Below, in pieces: positions 21,646 through 29,514 of a stretch of 64,000 nucleotides of DNA. A program made the translations under genes and the position numbers. Each line of letters begins with the position of its first letter. Within the stretch, counting starts at the first letter, position 1. Origin of the DNA: Lacinutrix mariniflava. GTDB lineage: Bacteria; Bacteroidota; Bacteroidia; Flavobacteriales; Flavobacteriaceae. A model generated the notes under the pieces. That model was not told the DNA's origin, searched no databases, and saw only the letters and a list, made by a program, of their open reading frames with translations. The stretch is taken from NCBI RefSeq assembly GCF_001418015.1, contig NZ_LIQG01000020.1, positions 310,001-374,000 of the forward strand, in the 5' to 3' direction.

Positions 21646-23271
21646 ATGATAAAGACTCTTAATAAAACACACGTGCTTTTGGGTCTTATAGTATTTTTTA
21701 CAGCATTAAGCGTTTGCGCCCAAACCAATAAGGAATTTGCTCGTTTTTACTTTAAATTAGATGCTGAATTAGAATTCTCTTCACCAAAAGAAGTTTTAAA
21801 TTATTCTGAATTAGTTAATTTAAACGCAAACTATACGTTTGAAATAAAAAAGGCATATGGGTTTACAAAGGCTCAGATTGAAAACCTTAGTCGGTTGTCT
21901 AAAACCAATTTTACTTTAAAAAACACCTTTAGAATAGAAGGTCTTTTTACAGAATCTGAAAGAGAATCTTTTCTTGAAACCTTAAAAAACACCGACCAAT
22001 TACTTTACGCATATAGCGCAATCACAACGCCTATGCAACCTCCTCACGATATTGCTCCTACAACTAGTGATTTAGAAAGCAACCAAGGTTACATAGAATC
22101 TAATCCAGGTGTTAATGTAAGATATGCTTGGGATAACGGCATTAATGGAACAGGAATAAATATTAAAGCTGTAGAATACGGTATTAATACAAACCATGAA
22201 GATTTAGACCATACCAATGCTTCTTTAGCACCAAATACAACTATAAATACTAATGCATCAACTGCTTTTACAGAACATGGTACTGGTGTCGCAGGTATTG
22301 TTTTTGCAGATAAAGGTATTTATGGCGTAAGTGGCTTAGCACATGGTGCAAACGAATATGTACTCTATCCTGAATGGACAGAAGAGTATAATTACAATCG
22401 TGTTTTAGCGACTTCTAATGCCATTGCAGATTCTAGCGCTGGAGATATTATTATTTTCGAAATGCAAACCACTGGCTCTAATGATTTTGTTCTTGCCGAA
22501 TATGAGCAAACTATCTGGGATCTTACAAAAGCAGCTACAGATGCAGGAATTGTAATTGTAGCCGCTGCAGGAAATGGAAACGAAGATTTAGACCATGCTT
22601 CTTACAGCAGCTATACTGCTCGAGGAGACAGTGGAGCTATTATAGTTGGCGCAGGAACTTCAGACTCGAACCATCACAAAATGAGCTTTTCTACCTATGG
22701 TTCTCGCGTAGATGTTCAAGCTTGGGGAGAAAATGTATACACTCTTGGTAACGCTTGTACATCTACAATAGTATTTGGTGGCGAGTTTAACCAAACATAC
22801 AATTCTTGTTTTAGCGGAACCAGTTCTGCTACGGCAATAATAGGTGGTTTTACAGCTGTTTTGCAATCGCATGCTCTAACCCAGAACGGAAGCTATTTAA
22901 CCTCTCAAGAATTAAGAACATTAATGATTAATACCGGAATACCTCAAGGTTCTGGAGGCCATATTGGTCCTTTACCAAATATGCAAGCCGCTATGTTAGC
23001 TTTAGACAACACCTTAAGCGTCGATTCTAAAAGTATTTCAAATTTTATAATGTATCCAAACCCTACTAACGGTGTTTTAAACATTAACTTAAATAGTTTT
23101 AATAACACGGCAAATTTAGAGATTCATAATTTATTAGGACAGCAAGTGTTTACTACTAATTTAACCAAAAGCAATAATAGTGTTTCTGTTAATAATCTAT
23201 CTAAAGGATTATACTTAGTAACAGTAAAAACGAATAACACTACAGCTACAAAAAAATTAGTTATTAATTAA
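21646..23271 (+). CDS. Secreted S8 (subtilisin-type) serine peptidase with T9SS sorting domain
   Basis: A 541-residue secreted protein: signal peptide (ends 'SVCAQ', ~25), a pro-region (~26-135), a subtilase domain (~155-455) and a type A T9SS sorting domain (~465-541, 'MYPNPTNGVLNINL ... LGQQVF ... YLVTVKTNNTTATKKLVIN'). His211 ('EHGTGVAGI'), oxyanion Asn310 ('AAAGN') and Ser393 ('FSGTSSATAI') are clear. Where most subtilases have the catalytic Asp (DTG/DSG), this one reads 'AVEYGINTNHEDL', so Glu177 takes its place. Similar E-type sequences may form their own S8 subgroup, so activity is plausible but unproven. Confidence 0.87.
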   Translation: MIKTLNKTHVLLGLIVFFTALSVCAQTNKEFARFYFKLDAELEFSSPKEVLNYSELVNLNANYTFEIKKAYGFTKAQIENLSRLSKTNFTLKNTFRIEGLFTESERESFLETLKNTDQLLYAYSAITTPMQPPHDIAPTTSDLESNQGYIESNPGVNVRYAWDNGINGTGINIKAVEYGINTNHEDLDHTNASLAPNTTINTNASTAFTEHGTGVAGIVFADKGIYGVSGLAHGANEYVLYPEWTEEYNYNRVLATSNAIADSSAGDIIIFEMQTTGSNDFVLAEYEQTIWDLTKAATDAGIVIVAAAGNGNEDLDHASYSSYTARGDSGAIIVGAGTSDSNHHKMSFSTYGSRVDVQAWGENVYTLGNACTSTIVFGGEFNQTYNSCFSGTSSATAIIGGFTAVLQSHALTQNGSYLTSQELRTLMINTGIPQGSGGHIGPLPNMQAAMLALDNTLSVDSKSISNFIMYPNPTNGVLNINLNSFNNTANLEIHNLLGQQVFTTNLTKSNNSVSVNNLSKGLYLVTVKTNNTTATKKLVIN

Positions 23272-23381: not shown

Positions 23382-25850
23382 ATGAATAAATACCAACTAC
23401 TCTGCCTTTCTTTTATTATTGCAAATTTTTCTTTTGCCCAAGTTACTGGAATTGTATCCTCGAATACCGATGACACCTTGCCGTTTGTTAACGTTTACAT
23501 AAACGATACCTACACAGGAACAACTACTAATGAAAATGGCAACTACACTTTAGACATTTCTAAAAAAGGAGATTACACCATTGTTTTTCAATATTTAGGC
23601 TTTAAAACACTTAAAAAGAGTATCTCCATAATGTCTTTTCCTTATGTTTTAGACGCTAAACTAGTTGAAGAAAATATATCTTTAAGTGAAGTGGTTATTA
23701 ATTCCGAAGAAAATCCTGCAAACCAAATTATAAGAAACACTATTGCAAAACGTAAAGATGTTTTAGAAAAATTAAGCGAGTACAAAGCCAATTTCTATTC
23801 TCGCGGACTTATTAAAATTAAAGACGCACCTAAAAAAATATTTGGACAAGACGTTGACGAAATGCTAGATGTAGAATTAGACTCTACTAGAAGTGGTATT
23901 ATTTATTTATCTGAAACCATTTCGGAAATTGAATATCAAAAACCAAAACGTTTAAAAGAGAAAATTTTAGCCTCTAAAGTCAGTGGAGATGCTAGTGGTT
24001 TTAGTTTTAATAACGCTACAGATGTTAACTATAACTTTTACCAAAACACATTCGATCTTGGTAACACTGTTATTTCTCCAATAGCAGATTATGCCTTTAA
24101 TTACTACAATTACAAACTAGAAGGTGTTTTTTACGACGATAATAACAACCTCATCAATAAAATATTAATCTCACCAAAGCGCGATAATGACGCTGCTTTT
24201 TCTGGTTACATATACATTGTAGAAGACCAATGGTTACTTTATGCAACAGATGTTACTATTACAGGTAAACGCACTGGTATGGCACCTGTAGATTTATTAA
24301 CCTTAAAACAAACATTCTCCTACTCTGAAACTGACAAAATTTGGGCATTAATTTCTCAAACTATAGATTTTAAATATGGGTTATTTGGTTTTAAAGGAGA
24401 AGGTAGATTTACAGCTATTTACAGCGATTACGATTTTACACCAGAATTTAACGCTAAAAATTTTACTAGAGAAATACTCTCCTTTGAAGAAAACTCTAAC
24501 AAAAAAGACTCTCTTTTTTGGGATACAAAACGACCTGTACCTTTAACAGTCGAAGAATCTACAGATTATGTTAAAAAAGACAGCATACAACTTATAAAAG
24601 AATCTAAACCATACTTAGATTCTATCGATAAGGAGCATAACACATTTAAAATAGGAAATCTCTTAGGCGGTTACAGTTATCAAAACTCTCATAAAAACTA
24701 TCGTTTTAGTATAGATTCGCCAATCGAAAAAATCACCTTTAACACTGTGCAAGGCTGGAACGCAAGTTTAGGCATGCGTTACACAAAAAATTACGATGAG
24801 TACAAGCGCTACTTTAGTATCGCTGGAGATGCAAACTTTGGAGAGGCAGACAATCGCTTACGCGGAACAGTTAATGCCCGCTATAAATTTAACTCAATTA
24901 ACAATCGTATTATATCTCTTTCTGGAGGAGTTAAAACAGAACAGTTTAATAGTTCTAACCCAATTTCTAATACCGAAAACTTAGTGAGTACATTACTTTT
25001 TGAAGATAATTACATGAAACTTTATGATAGAACTTTTGCACAAGGACAATACTATCAAGAGATTATTAATGGTGTTAAATTAAATTCTTCATTAGGTTTC
25101 GAACGTAGAAAAGCATTATTTAATAATACAGACTATGTAATGGTTAACGAAGATCGTGATAATTACACAAGTAATAATCCGTTAAATGAAACAGATTTTA
25201 CCTCTCGACCTTTTAACACTCATAATATTGCGAAGCTTAATGTGATTGCGACTATAAACTTTGCGCAAGATTATTTAAGCTATCCAGATGGCAAATACAA
25301 TATGCCAAATAGTAAGTATCCAACACTGTCTTTTGGTTATGAAAAAGGCTTCGCAGCTACAGATTCTAATTATAACTTCGACCAGTTTAAAACAAGACTA
25401 AGACAACGCATACGCCTTGGCAATAAAGGTGAATTTGAATATAATACGCAAGCTGGTGTTTTTGCAAATGCAGACAACATTGCCTTCATGGATTACCATC
25501 ACTTTAATGGCAACCAAACTAATGTAAAGTTAGATGGCTCTTATTTAAACTCCTTTAAAAACTTGCCTTATTATGCGTTAAGTACTAATGACAGTTATGC
25601 AGAAATACATACTGAATATCGATTTAATGGTTACATATTAAATAAAATTCCGTTAATAAATAAGCTTAACTTCAATCTTATTTTAGGTGCAAAAGCAGCC
25701 TTTACACAAGACAATAAACCGTATTCAGAATACTCAATTGGTGTAGATAATATTGGCTTTGGTAAGTTTAGATTCTTGAGAGTAGATTATGTACGCTCTT
25801 ACCAAAGTGGCTTTGCGAATGACGCTGTAATGTTTGGGATAAGTTTTTAA
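23382..25850 (+). CDS. DUF5686 outer-membrane protein with carboxypeptidase-like regulatory domain
   Basis: An 822-residue protein with a signal peptide ('NFSFAQ', ~19), an N-terminal CarboxypepD_reg-like domain (~20-105, 'VTGIVSSNTDDTLPFVNVYINDT...GTTTNENGNYTL') and a long DUF5686 region predicted to end in a beta-barrel ('...YVRSYQSGFANDAVMFGISF'; the last residue is Phe, as in outer-membrane proteins). It is a core Flavobacteriaceae envelope protein of unknown function. Its end marks the left border of the accessory region before pcm. Confidence 0.88.
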   Translation: MNKYQLLCLSFIIANFSFAQVTGIVSSNTDDTLPFVNVYINDTYTGTTTNENGNYTLDISKKGDYTIVFQYLGFKTLKKSISIMSFPYVLDAKLVEENISLSEVVINSEENPANQIIRNTIAKRKDVLEKLSEYKANFYSRGLIKIKDAPKKIFGQDVDEMLDVELDSTRSGIIYLSETISEIEYQKPKRLKEKILASKVSGDASGFSFNNATDVNYNFYQNTFDLGNTVISPIADYAFNYYNYKLEGVFYDDNNNLINKILISPKRDNDAAFSGYIYIVEDQWLLYATDVTITGKRTGMAPVDLLTLKQTFSYSETDKIWALISQTIDFKYGLFGFKGEGRFTAIYSDYDFTPEFNAKNFTREILSFEENSNKKDSLFWDTKRPVPLTVEESTDYVKKDSIQLIKESKPYLDSIDKEHNTFKIGNLLGGYSYQNSHKNYRFSIDSPIEKITFNTVQGWNASLGMRYTKNYDEYKRYFSIAGDANFGEADNRLRGTVNARYKFNSINNRIISLSGGVKTEQFNSSNPISNTENLVSTLLFEDNYMKLYDRTFAQGQYYQEIINGVKLNSSLGFERRKALFNNTDYVMVNEDRDNYTSNNPLNETDFTSRPFNTHNIAKLNVIATINFAQDYLSYPDGKYNMPNSKYPTLSFGYEKGFAATDSNYNFDQFKTRLRQRIRLGNKGEFEYNTQAGVFANADNIAFMDYHHFNGNQTNVKLDGSYLNSFKNLPYYALSTNDSYAEIHTEYRFNGYILNKIPLINKLNFNLILGAKAAFTQDNKPYSEYSIGVDNIGFGKFRFLRVDYVRSYQSGFANDAVMFGISF

Positions 25851-25892
25851 CAAATTCCTCCATAAGCAGGAATCTTCTGCTATAACATTCTA

Positions 25893-25975
25893 CTTGACTT
25901 TGTCAAAAAAATAATCGAACTTCGTTTAACGTATAAAATAATAAAACGGTTTCATATCAATGACATTAGTCACAA
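25893..25975 (+). repeat. Leader repeat, copy 1
   Basis: Starts CTTGACTTTGTCAAAAAAAT and continues with TCGAACTTCGTTTAACGTAT and AAAACGGTTTCATATCAA. It ends in the inverted-repeat element ACATTAGTCACA (25963-25974), 21 bases before the cargo ATG. Copy 2 at 26772 shares these blocks. Both end right before a cargo gene, so the repeat may carry its promoter. Confidence 0.75.
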
Positions 25976-25995
25976 TATGAACACACACAAACTCA

Positions 25996-26451
25996 ATGAA
26001 AAATAAAACTATCCGAATCGCATTGTCAAGTGTTTTAATATATCTGATTTTCAAAAAATCTTACAACATATTGATTGGATTACTTTTGTGGTTAAATGTG
26101 GAATTAAGAATCGAAAATGAATATGTTTTAATTTCGTTAAACATCATTATCGGAATTTTATCACTCTTGCTTTTGATTTTTTTATATAATCGATTTCTAA
26201 AAAAAGGAAAACTAAAAAATAAAGCAGTTTATACTTTAATTATAATTACAGTTTTTCTGACAATAGTTTTTGGCGGAATTAATAAACTATATTGGAGTTA
26301 TTTAGCAAATATCGAAATGGATGAATCCCGACTCTCATATTTCGAATTTAGTTGGTCAAAAACTTTAGATATTGTTTTTCCCATTTTTGGTTTGATATAT
26401 TTCTTATGGAAACTTAAAACGGATAAAAATACTGTGCCTAACATCGTATAA
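25996..26451 (+). CDS. Small multi-pass membrane protein, cargo of module 1
   Basis: A 151-residue protein with about four hydrophobic segments (~12-35, ~46-66, ~78-97, ~128-142) and basic loops ('KKGKLKNK'). No family recognised. Its last codons and TAA overlap the right inverted-repeat element (TGTGCCTAACAT, 26433-26444), so the coding sequence ends inside the module boundary, as seen in compact gene cassettes. It is specific to the accessory region; a role in defence or membrane integrity is only a guess. Confidence 0.65.
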   Translation: MKNKTIRIALSSVLIYLIFKKSYNILIGLLLWLNVELRIENEYVLISLNIIIGILSLLLLIFLYNRFLKKGKLKNKAVYTLIIITVFLTIVFGGINKLYWSYLANIEMDESRLSYFEFSWSKTLDIVFPIFGLIYFLWKLKTDKNTVPNIV

Positions 26452-26538
26452 AAATAATTGCGGTTTAGTTGCTTAACCAAAGGTAGCTGCTTGCTTGTAA
26501 CTACTCTTGCACGCAAACATTAAACAAACCGCTCAAAA

Positions 26539-26709
26539 AAAATTAATTCTTATCCTCTAAAAGCGGTACAAATCGAAACTCACCATACTCGATTTTATCA
26601 AACTCTTCCACTTCTTTTCTAACAAAAAGTACCGTAGTTTCTACGTAATCCCCTATAGAAACAACTGAACAACCATCAATTTACAATTACATCAATAATA
26701 ATTTTGGTG
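26539..26709 (-). pseudogene. pcm: Fragment of a second pcm gene (3' end only)
   Basis: Read on the minus strand, the frame gives 'PKLLLM*L*IDGCSVVSIGDYV', 'ETTVLFVRKEVEEFDKIEYG' and 'EFRFVPLLEDKN*'. This aligns with the C-terminus of intact pcm ('PKPLLAQLEIGGRLVIPVGENV...' to 'LLEDKN'). Two codons for Gln and Glu have become TAA. The last ~35 codons and the 3' flank are nearly identical to intact pcm, while the upstream part is more diverged. The first ~150 codons are absent. A remnant, not a functional gene. Confidence 0.88.
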
Positions 26710-26771
26710 AATTTAGTAAAACTTGTTCTTTTTTATAGCGAGATAAGAATTTCGTGCTATGCATTTCTAAG

Positions 26772-26882
26772 CTTGACTTTGTAAAAAAAATAGTCGAACT
26801 TCGTTTAACGTATGATATAAAACACTTGTGCTGAACTTGATTCAGTATTAAAACGGTTTCATATCAACGACATTGTGCCAAT
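26772..26882 (+). repeat. Leader repeat, copy 2
   Basis: Matches copy 1 (25893-25975) in blocks CTTGACTTTGT, TCGAACTTCGTTTAACGTAT and AAAACGGTTTCATATCAA, with an extra ~28 bases in the middle (ACACTTGTGCTGAACTTGAT and neighbours). It ends in ACATTGTGCC (26870-26879), an inverted-repeat partner of GGCACAACAATGT after the cargo gene. Confidence 0.75.
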
Positions 26883-26901
26883 ATCCAGAAACTTATATCC
26901 A

Positions 26902-28653
26902 ATGTTTGAAAACTTAGAAAAATATTATGCCTTTTTAGAAAAGGACAACAGTCTGATTAGGAGTTATGGTATATCTAATAAGTTAAACTCTATTATAGAA
27001 AAAACTGAGGACGAGATTGAAAAAAAGATACTGTCATACGAGATGTTTTTCAATGATTTAAATTTTGAAAAAGGCAAATTAATTCCAAAACATTCAATAG
27101 GAGAAAAATCATATCCTGAATTGTCCTTATTTGACGACAACTTTGAGCACATAAAATCTAGAGCAACTTCGGAAGACATTTCAAATCCTCGAAACAAAGC
27201 TAAATACAATCACGTTATTTGGGTAAGCGCTGAGAAGCATATTGACTATGCAAAAAGAGCTATTGATAATTATTTTACATTTCTAAAAAATATAAGTTTA
27301 CCCAAAGATGACAATTTAACTAATCGAGGTTTCGCTTTAAACTATGAAAACTTATTCATTTTAAGTGAAACTATAAACTACAAAAAGAAAGAGATAATTG
27401 AATTTCTTATAAGTCATTTGCATAAAGATGAACTAAACGGATATCAAAAATATTCTATTATGAACTTTATCCTTTCAGAAGGAAAAAAAGTGATTAACAA
27501 ATATGTAGAAGATTTCTTTGACTATTCAAAATCCGTAATTGATAATACTTTGTATCCAGACTTTTCAAAAGAGTATTTAAACTTGTTAATTCGAATTTGC
27601 TCAAAACAAGGCGTTTCCGCTAAGGAATATCAGAATAAACTTGGTGACTTTCATATTATAGATTCTGAAAAACACAAAGAGAGTTTTGCTGTACATGATT
27701 ACTATATTAGAGCATTAAAACAATATCAAAAGGCAGGTAATAAAGAAAAAGTAGAGGAAGTAACTTTATTAATTGAAAAAGCTAAGGACAACCTCAATTT
27801 TAAATCTATTGAGTCTGAACATTCAAGTCCTGAATTACAAAAATGGTGGGATAATCTAAAAGCGTATACAACAGAACTTACAGATAAGGGAGAAAGCAAA
27901 GAAATTTATGAATATCTAATATTAGCTAAAATATTCCCAAAAGCAGATGTGCTTGACAAAAAAGTGAAATCTGTTACGATGGATTTAGTTAGCACTATGA
28001 ACTTTGATATTAATCGTAATGTTAGTAGTTCTGAAAATAATGGAATAAACGAATACAACATTCATATTCAAAATTTTTCCTTGCGTCACTTATGGTTAAT
28101 ATTCACTAAAGGTTTAAAAAATCAAAAGATTGGTTTTAAATCTTTGAAAGACTACTTTGAAAATCACACTTGGTATGGAGAAGATATTATCAGTACAAAT
28201 GCTGATGGAGTAAAAGAAACATTCAATTGGCTTGACCTTTTAATGCCTTCATTTGCGAGTTATTTTTCGCAATCAGAAATTGATTTAAAAGAAAATAAAA
28301 ATAGTGAAACTGGTTACATTTTATCAATTGACTCTTTAGTTTTAAAATTTGAAGGTGTTTTAAGGTCCTTTTCCAGAAATATTGGAGCGCAAACAATTGA
28401 TATTAAAGAAAATGGTACTCAGGAAAGAATTTCATTTGATAAGCTTATTGAAAATGACAAAATTAAAGACATAATACCAGAAAATGATATTGCTTTTTTT
28501 AAATTTATATTCACATCAGAAGGTATGAATTTGAGAAATAATATTGCTCATTGTTTTTACAAACCTAAAAATTATTCAGCTGCTGTGATGTGGTTATTAA
28601 CTTGTGCCTTTTTAAAACTTGGCAATTATAAATTTAATAAAATTGAGAAATAA
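26902..28653 (+). CDS. DUF4209-like protein with RNxxxH (HEPN-like) motif, cargo of module 2
   Basis: 583 residues from the ATG at 26902. A GTG at 26875 would add nine residues but lies inside the inverted-repeat element, so I prefer the ATG. The protein is soluble and mostly helical, with no signal. The C-terminal ~200 residues end in 'GMNLRNNIAHCF' followed by a hydrophobic helix 'AAVMWLLTCAFLKL', matching the end of DUF4209 as I know it. 'RNNIAH' (~545-550) fits RNxxxH, the catalytic signature of HEPN ribonucleases. The N-terminal ~300 residues are tandem helices. Location in an accessory module is compatible with a defence role. Family and activity are inferred. Confidence 0.7.
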   Translation: MFENLEKYYAFLEKDNSLIRSYGISNKLNSIIEKTEDEIEKKILSYEMFFNDLNFEKGKLIPKHSIGEKSYPELSLFDDNFEHIKSRATSEDISNPRNKAKYNHVIWVSAEKHIDYAKRAIDNYFTFLKNISLPKDDNLTNRGFALNYENLFILSETINYKKKEIIEFLISHLHKDELNGYQKYSIMNFILSEGKKVINKYVEDFFDYSKSVIDNTLYPDFSKEYLNLLIRICSKQGVSAKEYQNKLGDFHIIDSEKHKESFAVHDYYIRALKQYQKAGNKEKVEEVTLLIEKAKDNLNFKSIESEHSSPELQKWWDNLKAYTTELTDKGESKEIYEYLILAKIFPKADVLDKKVKSVTMDLVSTMNFDINRNVSSSENNGINEYNIHIQNFSLRHLWLIFTKGLKNQKIGFKSLKDYFENHTWYGEDIISTNADGVKETFNWLDLLMPSFASYFSQSEIDLKENKNSETGYILSIDSLVLKFEGVLRSFSRNIGAQTIDIKENGTQERISFDKLIENDKIKDIIPENDIAFFKFIFTSEGMNLRNNIAHCFYKPKNYSAAVMWLLTCAFLKLGNYKFNKIEK

Positions 28654-28658
28654 TACTA

Positions 28659-28671
28659 GGCACAACAATGT
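28659..28671. repeat. Right inverted-repeat element of module 2
   Basis: GGCACAACAATGT is, reverse-complemented, ACATTGTTGTGCC, which matches the left element ACATTGTGCC (26870-26879) apart from a 3-base insertion. It lies 5 bases after the cargo stop codon. Confidence 0.55.
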
Positions 28672-28872
28672 ATTTAAAGCATAGCTAATATAGGTTTGCC
28701 GAAAGATTTGTGTGTGTTTTCGAAGACCACCAAATTTTTAAATTTGGCTTTTGAGAAAATTAAGTAAAAAGAAATATTTAAAAATTCGGCTCGTGTATAA
28801 TCCAAAACGATAGTGTCTTTTTACACGCTATGTTTCATATACGTAACCATTAAACAAACCTCTCAAAAAAAA

Positions 28873-29514
28873 TTAATTCTTATCCTCTAAAAGCGGTACA
28901 AATCGAAACTCACCATACTCGGTTTTATCAAACTCCTTCACTCCTTTTCTAACAAAAAGCGTCATAGTTTGCACGTTTTCTCCAACAGGTATAACCAAAC
29001 GACCTCCAATTTCTAATTGCGCTAATAATGGTTTAGGCACAAAAGGAGCACCAGCAGTAACAATAATACTTTTAAAAGGCGCTTCTTCGACTAAACCTTT
29101 ATAACCATCGCCAAAAATAAATTTCTTAGCCCTAAAACCAAGTTTTGGTAAAAACTTACTCGTTTTCTTAAACAGCTCTTGTTGTCTTTCTATACTATAC
29201 ACTTTGGCTCCTAAATCGCATAAAACTGCCGTTTGATAACCACTTCCAGTACCAATTTCTAAAACCTTGTCTCCTCTAGTAATTTGCATTAGCTCGGTTT
29301 GAAAAGCAACAGTATACGGTTGCGAAATAGTTTGATCTGCAGCAATAGGAAACGCTTTATCTTGATAAGCATGGTCTAAAAATCCAGAATCCATAAACAA
29401 ATGACGTGGTATTTTACCAATAGCATTTAACACTGCCTTATCAGTAATGCCCTTGTTTATCAATATGCTAACGAGTTGTTGCCTTAAGCCTTTATGTTTA
29501 AAATTATCTTGCAA
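28873..29514 (-). CDS. pcm: Protein-L-isoaspartate O-methyltransferase
   Basis: A 213-residue SAM-dependent enzyme that repairs isoaspartyl residues in aged proteins. 'AFPIAADQTISQPYTVAFQTELM' and the SAM loop 'VLEIGTGSGYQTAVL' are signatures, with 'IIVTAGAPFVPKPLLAQL' later. The start is TTG at 29514. A dead copy of its 3' third lies 2.3 kb away at 26539-26709, separated by cargo genes. The intact gene is complete. Confidence 0.96.
   Translation of the reverse strand: MQDNFKHKGLRQQLVSILINKGITDKAVLNAIGKIPRHLFMDSGFLDHAYQDKAFPIAADQTISQPYTVAFQTELMQITRGDKVLEIGTGSGYQTAVLCDLGAKVYSIERQQELFKKTSKFLPKLGFRAKKFIFGDGYKGLVEEAPFKSIIVTAGAPFVPKPLLAQLEIGGRLVIPVGENVQTMTLFVRKGVKEFDKTEYGEFRFVPLLEDKN

Follow-up and report, generated by a model that had tools for sequence, protein, structure and literature searches.

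A candidate integron variant of Bacteroidota with single cassettes on dispersed platforms in Lacinutrix mariniflava

Integron cassettes begin with bases that pair with the R″ box of their own attC site. Cassettes derived from transposons (miniature inverted-repeat transposable elements or mobile insertion cassettes) carry a transposase's terminal inverted repeats and lie within a short duplication of the target. On their R″–L″ arm, known attC sites have extrahelical bases (PMC2727003). The I2 domain of the integron integrase, IntI, is reported to be required for cassette capture and to occur in no other protein, and the study of the origin of this integrase is limited by missing intermediates (PMC7790495). 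Away from integrons, cassettes or their sites are known from clusters of attC lacking an integron integrase (CALIN; PMC9024848) and from attG sites, whose consensus positions are broadly distributed over many loci (Loot et al. 2024, via PMC12444791). Bacteroidota are listed among the phyla with integrons (PMC8618304), and integrons in this phylum are therefore not new per se; the first version of IntegronFinder found only In0 elements in Bacteroidetes, to which version 2 added a complete Salinibacter integron (PMC9024848). A full-text search, which reached few subscription journals and preprints, gave no paper on flavobacterial arrays of the kind described here among its top results. The present study concerns a 64,000-nucleotide stretch of Lacinutrix mariniflava DNA (the window; positions 310001–374000 of contig C20, NZ_LIQG01000020.1), in which the gap between a DUF5686-like gene and pcm probably holds two dispersed docking platforms, both occupied by a single cassette from an integron-like system of the chromosome. 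In this genome, the main array and the likely gene for the recombinase are situated elsewhere. Judged from sequence comparison, we file the system as a new integron variant in Bacteroidota. Below, C-numbers denote contigs of the source genome (G000), L-numbers extracted loci and G-numbers genomes.

The first-pass annotation of the window had proposed a cassette-like cargo-exchange hotspot, built from two copies of a unit comprising a leader repeat, a cargo open reading frame (ORF) between inverted repeats and the 3′ end of pcm. Most of this description held up. The leaders are repeated (25893–25941 and 26772–26820, 92% identical; 25939–25967 and 26846–26874, 93%), and the cargos differ completely, one being a 151-aa membrane-like protein and the other an unrelated protein with a DUF4209 match (PF13910, E = 1.4e-8). 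The inverted repeats around the cargo are present as well, but they are really the arms of attC-like tails plus the platform ends described below. The pcm 3′ end also occurs twice (197 nt, 82% identical), at 28841–29037 as the end of the real pcm gene and at 26511–26707 as a 3′ fragment only. Its inclusion in the repeating unit had to be given up: in a comparison with this window and the loci of 80 relatives, the best non-self match of the fragment was the pcm of its own genome, with no sign of import, and it is a decayed local copy outside the mobile unit. The leader itself was found 34 times in the genome (best non-self E = 1.4e-22), a repetition far above chance, and the possibility that it was unique to the pcm locus was thereby rejected. 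Sixteen of 60 genomes, including the source genome, contain a leader match, namely 11 of the 13 in the genus and five from other genera of the family.

The leader and the motif ACATT|AAACGAA together make up a docking platform, palindromic and ≈80–110 bp long, whose ends, TTCGTTTAA and TTAAACGAA, are complementary to each other. Four leader variants gave 35 merged hits in the extracted loci of the source genome, the window platforms among them, with a conserved core (ACTTGACTTTGT...TTCGTTTAACGTATGATATAAAA..TTTTATATCAACGAAACATT) and varying upstream flanks; some copies are partial. In ten units, two of them in the source genome (L009 and L011), the leader passes directly into TTAAACGAA or a near form of it, leaving an empty platform, and an uncultured Olleya (L031) has an eleventh empty platform at its pcm locus. 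Empty platforms are palindromic, and their consensus folds as a single strand with ≈−13 kcal/mol (z = −4.6 and −5.1). A second type of platform, with the same TTGACTTT start and another hairpin, was seen at L014:4747–4837, L023:2146–2236 and L026:3221–3301.

The gap at pcm is itself variable, in keeping with the proposed hotspot. Among 80 relatives, the DUF5686-like gene is convergent to pcm in the 36 that have both genes on the extracted stretch, and the gap between them ranges from 42 to 6151 bp. Inspection of 16 relatives by eye showed the leader with other ORFs in three (L030, L032 and L036), the empty platform in L031, a decayed copy in L028 and no leader in the remaining 11. The same two cargos are thus not conserved among relatives: at this site, the leader of Olleya and Mesoflavibacter is followed by different ORFs, or the platform is empty. 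Matches to R1, a covariance model built from 16 tails, fall inside the gap in three of the 80 loci (L030, L036 and L052).

Two loci, L009:3996–7323 and L010:4311–16314, contain tandem platforms with duplicates of an adjacent gene end or terminator from the same locus between them: the 3′ end of the downstream convergent gene in L010, and the end of the upstream gene plus its terminator in L009. Such duplicated flanks, the pcm 3′ end that was duplicated along with the platform in the window and the fact that leaders and tails are common repeats would all suit an old tandem duplication followed by homologous recombination via the shared leaders and tails, for instance after natural transformation, and without a site-specific enzyme at work on the dispersed platforms. 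We consider this explanation very improbable. Homologous exchange would not produce cassette starts that match their own tails, nor would it end the identity between two cassettes exactly at TT (both described below), and it leaves the empty ..ACATTAAACGAA platforms unexplained.

The match between cassette starts and tails was scored by comparing the seven bases after TT with the reverse complement of the seven bases before the AAC of the tail. Tails were located by the motif AACACCGTATA and near forms of it, independently of any expected complementarity. The sample was drawn from 58 leader matches by taking those with up to three mismatches as well as two named loci, L147 and L148, and leaving out the remainder; with five units added by hand (both window units included), it comprised 46 units, nine empty and 37 filled. 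In the 26 platform units scored, 136 of 182 positions matched, compared to 67.0 ± 7.5 after shuffling (maximum 103; none of 20,000 shuffles as high). The 46 cassettes of the superarray (see below) gave 274 of 322, compared to 118.4 ± 10.6 (maximum 173). With the seven superarray cassettes that have insertion-sequence-like or repeat starts set aside, positions 1–7 from TT matched in all 39, followed by 38 at position 8, 26 at position 9, one at position 10 (where A stands opposite G in 33), 33 at position 11, 37 at position 12 and 30 at position 13. Cassettes of both platforms and superarray therefore begin with the complement of the R″ box in their own attC-like tail. Within the window, the start of cassette 1, TTAGTCACAATATG, matches the reverse complement of its R″ region, TTAGGCACAGTATT, at six of seven positions after TT. 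The start of cassette 2, TTGTGCCAATAT, pairs by eye with the reverse complement of its R″, TTGTGCCTAGTAT, if one gap is allowed; this cassette was unscored in the 26-unit test because the motif found no tail there.

The tails are bounded by AAC and GTT and form a hairpin in which 96.1% of cells are paired. The covariation score was 0.286 vs. 0.089, with none of 500 shuffles as high, whereas the number of further pair types did not exceed that in shuffles (103 of 500 as high). In the 46 superarray tails, the two L arms are of equal length, gap-free in 44, and two columns have A opposite C in every tail. In a wider set of 196 tails (the 150 best of 165 matches plus the 46 superarray tails), two A·C mismatches stand exactly 5 nt apart in 180, and A·C accounts for 460 of the 557 mismatches. 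These mismatches turn into G·T pairs in the bottom strand, and when the junction of a cassette circle was built in silico, the bottom strand folded better in 39 of 39 cases (mean −26.0 vs. −21.4 kcal/mol). The tails thus share the more stable bottom-strand hairpin with integron sites, but unlike those sites they have A·C mismatches and no extrahelical bases on the R″–L″ arm. The single tail compared from beside a true IntI (L193) has no A·C pair, although one site is thin evidence, and the pattern is also absent from tail L186, beside a recombinase of the new type, which has A·G and A·C instead.

On contig C20, R1 tails cluster from position 21892 to 72266, with no more matches up to 78000. 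This superarray comprises 47 attC-like sites, starting at L162:3892 (=C20:21892) and all in plus orientation; a further two matches on the minus strand are weak (31 bits each) and overlap plus-strand sites. The first site adjoins the gene for a tyrosine recombinase, which points away from the array, and ≈80–100 bp upstream of the recombinase start there is a candidate attI-type array site, ..AAACG|TTATCTATAA, read in the source genome. Although the first-pass annotation noted no integrase in the window, a likely integrase gene does exist, on the same contig beyond the window and ≈315 kb from the pcm locus.

One cassette, with a 133-aa ORF, is shared by the superarray and a dispersed platform on contig C32 (L010:4393–4950 = L162:11359–11916, identical at 558 of 558 nt). 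The identity begins with the first T of the TT that follows the leader and stops at the GTT of the attC-like site, the flanks differ, and the edges are exactly the predicted crossovers, TT..GTT. Another genome of the genus (L168) has a second superarray cassette, 94% identical over its whole length. The comparison was confined to superarray cassettes shorter than 2200 nt and yielded only three matches that span 70% or more of a cassette, the third with 80% identity. The remaining matches of dispersed loci to the superarray were partial and 74–82% identical.

Elements of the IS110 type are known to target attC. In the superarray, an IS110-family transposase gene (PF02371, PF01548; L162:16210–17202) lies directly after an attC-like site, a likeness to integrons, and the start of this unit, TTCCAAGATCAATTCC, follows attC-like sites in four of 46 intervals, as if the IS110-family element targeted them. 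In three of the 46 intervals, a short repeat beginning with TTCTGGTTAATGC replaces the cassette start; it also follows the L139 tail, there with inverted ends.

Five array-side recombinases scanned with Pfam matched PF00589 and PF13495. The model of the integron integrase, TIGR02249, matched the array-side enzymes in two pieces at 181–209 bits, below its cut-off of 265, compared to 139 bits for the XerD of the source genome. The distance from the KDR to the HxxRH motif was 58–59 residues in 20 of 21 array-side enzymes (not measurable in L194), 64–66 in four of four XerC/D and 100 in four of four IntI; a fifth IntI locus, L178, gave no ORF under the filter used. The array-side recombinases lack the ≈40-residue insertion of IntI, in the region of the I2 helix. 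The residues K, H, R, H and Y are conserved in all 19 aligned array-side enzymes, and the first R in 18; we take these to be the catalytic residues. Nine array-side recombinases have long open frames of 378–411 aa (L166, L167, L168, L170, L174, L189, L190, L192 and L197), with an additional N-terminal stretch of ≈100 residues. In G008 (C1:834586–835378) and G013 (C13:65417–66367), the recombinase gene has internal stops and the array remains.

In one alternative, the system is integron-like but is moved by XerC/XerD or another recombinase, and the adjacent enzyme does something else. Xer recombinases likewise lack the insertion. The closest sequence match of the recombinase in the PDB is an archaeal Xer protein (4a8e), and the best NCBIfam model is one of XerA type, NF040815, which is titled tyrosine recombinase/integron integrase and matches at 205–230 bits, with its cut-off of 220 exceeded in two of the five enzymes. 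The AlphaFold model of the recombinase (mean pLDDT 82.7, pTM 0.61) matched 4a8e with Z = 22.6 (rmsd 8.8, 254 aligned), the IntI of V. cholerae (2a3v) with Z = 21.6 (rmsd 4.0, 258 aligned) and XerA (5hxy) with Z = 21.3 (rmsd 14.8, 258 aligned); 4a8e thus tops the list, tied within ≈1 with IntI. Unlike Xer genes, however, the array-side gene adjoins cassette arrays, and does so in many genera. In a tree of 29 sequences, the array-side enzymes and IntI were split from XerC/D with a support of 100/100, long branches being flagged, and the array-side enzymes score higher than the resident XerD with the integron integrase model, as noted above. We regard movement by XerC/XerD or another enzyme as unlikely.

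R1 tails were found in 39 of 60 genomes, including the source genome, and in 51 of 296 genomes of a sample of the phylum, 16 of the 30 in the family among them. R1 is not specific for the new variant, since in G124 the site adjoins a true IntI. Recombinases of the new type were defined by E < 1e-80 with profile A2, a cut-off chosen after viewing the list. The 30 family genomes comprised 15 with both recombinase and tails, one with tails only, seven with the recombinase only and seven with neither (Fisher p = 0.012, a value that ignores kinship and depends on the post hoc cut-off). Recombinase and tail lie within 10 kb of each other in at least 14 genomes (G000, G087, G254, G175, G345, G142, G096, G104, G112, G168, G232, G013, G146 and G157). 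A tail was present within 2 kb of an intact recombinase gene in 19 of 21 extracted loci, most of which had been picked for tails listed nearby; the other two, L195 and L196, are from genomes without any R1 match. The recombinase gene is directed away from the array in the source genome, G009, G096, G112, G232 and G104. Unlike in integrons, it has the same direction as the array in 13 of the relatives examined (G002, G004, G005, G026, G036, G087, G142, G168, G175, G191, G254, G282 and G345).

These distributions also bear on a second alternative, in which the cassettes are CALIN leftovers of an ordinary IntI integron that has lost its integrase, and the nearby tyrosine recombinase is a bystander. 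The architecture of the cassettes is integron-like, R1 also finds the site beside the true IntI of G124, and IntI above the curated cut-off is common elsewhere in the phylum (84 of 296 genomes, 83 of them outside the class of the source genome). The dispersed platforms, with attC-like sites distant from the integrase gene, fit the definition of CALIN. The superarray does not. This genome also contains an array that adjoins a recombinase gene, recombinases adjoin arrays in many genera, and each dispersed site stands behind its own copy of the platform. Furthermore, IntI above the TIGR02249 cut-off was absent from all 13 genus genomes and from the 30 genomes of the family in the phylum sample, by which an ordinary IntI integron was rejected, and the one IntI-linked site compared (L193) has no A·C pair. 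The CALIN explanation is accordingly a poor candidate, about as improbable as movement by Xer.

We think it probable that the system represents a separate integron lineage of Bacteroidota, in which the recombinase never acquired, or lost, I2, the strand is read from paired A·C mismatches, and single cassettes are spread over dedicated promoter-like platforms. Cassettes would circulate as circles with one ORF and an attC-like hairpin site, and the array-side recombinase would join the folded attC to a TT, either in a platform (ACA|TT) or in the array site (ACG|TT). Recombination between attC and the platform TT would thus place a cassette between ACATT and ACGTTAAACGAA, converting an empty ..ACATTAAACGAA platform to ..ACATT-cassette-..ACGTTAAACGAA. 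The enzyme presumably acts on single strands, the bottom strand being marked by the A·C mismatches (G·T pairs there) rather than by extrahelical bases. The platform would be a secondary site of insertion that also supplies a promoter, putatively in TTGACTTTG..TTCG. The system shares with integrons the same-strand tandem cassettes, the palindromic sites between AAC and GTT, the self-complementary ends and a tyrosine recombinase gene adjoining the array, and differs in the missing insertion, the equal L arms and the many hairpin-bearing platforms elsewhere in the genome. As at attG sites, cassettes are found outside the integron at chromosomal positions, although the target here is a conserved hairpin repeat rather than a broadly distributed consensus (Loot et al. 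2024, via PMC12444791).

Several observations count against this reading. The support comes from comparing sequences, and no recombination event was observed. The XerA-type model is the best match in NCBIfam, and the XerD of the source genome also matches it, with 225 bits; the array-side group was not resolved as a clade apart from IntI (24/75), and the fold predicted for the enzyme fits IntI and XerA to a similar degree. The tail motif found no tail in 11 of the 37 filled units, which were dropped from the score, and the ends match poorly in L025 (1/7), L020 (1/7) and the second-last unit of L009 (2/7). Seven family genomes have a recombinase of this type without an R1 match, G290 has R1 matches without such a recombinase, and among five stretches picked by attC alone, a recombinase gene was present in two (G026 and G036). 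Genomes G004 and G008 have arrays yet no platform match; the system therefore does not need the platform. Finally, both window tails are weak matches to R1 (47.1 and 26.0 bits), and these two cassettes may therefore no longer move.

If the reading is correct, arrays beside enzymes without I2 are natural test cases, representing either an older form or an alternative solution. Since the recombinase lacks a part thought essential in integrons, the case bears on integron origins. Flavobacterial integrons might then be common but overlooked by searches that require the IntI insertion, and the dispersed platforms would constitute a second layer, in which cassettes are stored at a distance from the array and may be expressed there.

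Table 1. Features of the pcm locus (window coordinates) and the array-side recombinase gene (contig coordinates).
Feature	Position	Strand	Basis or remark
DUF5686-like gene, 822 aa (DUF name from first-pass annotation)	23382–25850	+	left neighbour of platform 1
Docking platform 1, imperfect hairpin in the leader, ..GACATT at its end	25891–25970	+	leader matches
Cassette 1	25966–26519	+	predicted TT crossover after leader to TT of TTAAACAAACC
Cargo ORF 1, 151 aa, small membrane-like protein	25996–26451	+	ORF call
Cassette 1 attC-like tail, shortened, partly decayed	26440–26521	+	R1, 47.1 bits, E = 3.5e-6
Decayed duplicate of pcm 3′ end	26511–26720	+	82% to native over 197 nt
Weak resemblance to left flank of platform 1	26742–26771	+	local score 11.5, reached in 2 of 500 shuffles
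Docking platform 2, hairpin loop longer	26772–26874	+	leader matches
Cassette 2	26873–28849	+	predicted TT crossover to TT of TTAAACAAACC
Cargo ORF 2	26905–28653	+	582 aa from ATG 26905; 592 aa from GTG 26875
Cassette 2 attC-like tail, long form	28664–28851	+	R1, 26.0 bits, E = 0.044 (weak)
pcm (protein-L-isoaspartate O-methyltransferase, name from first-pass annotation)	28873–29514	−	right neighbour
Tyrosine recombinase gene, 285 aa	C20:20596–21453 (L162:2596–3453)	−	adjoins first array site

In a Pfam scan, cargo ORF 1 (Table 1) gave nothing above the cut-off. Cargo ORF 2 was found in three of 149 family genomes, including the source genome; the other two had no useful R1 match near it (one of 11.7 bits). 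The tail of cassette 2 is 75% identical over 180 nt to a superarray tail. The pcm protein is 96% identical to that of L. algicola.

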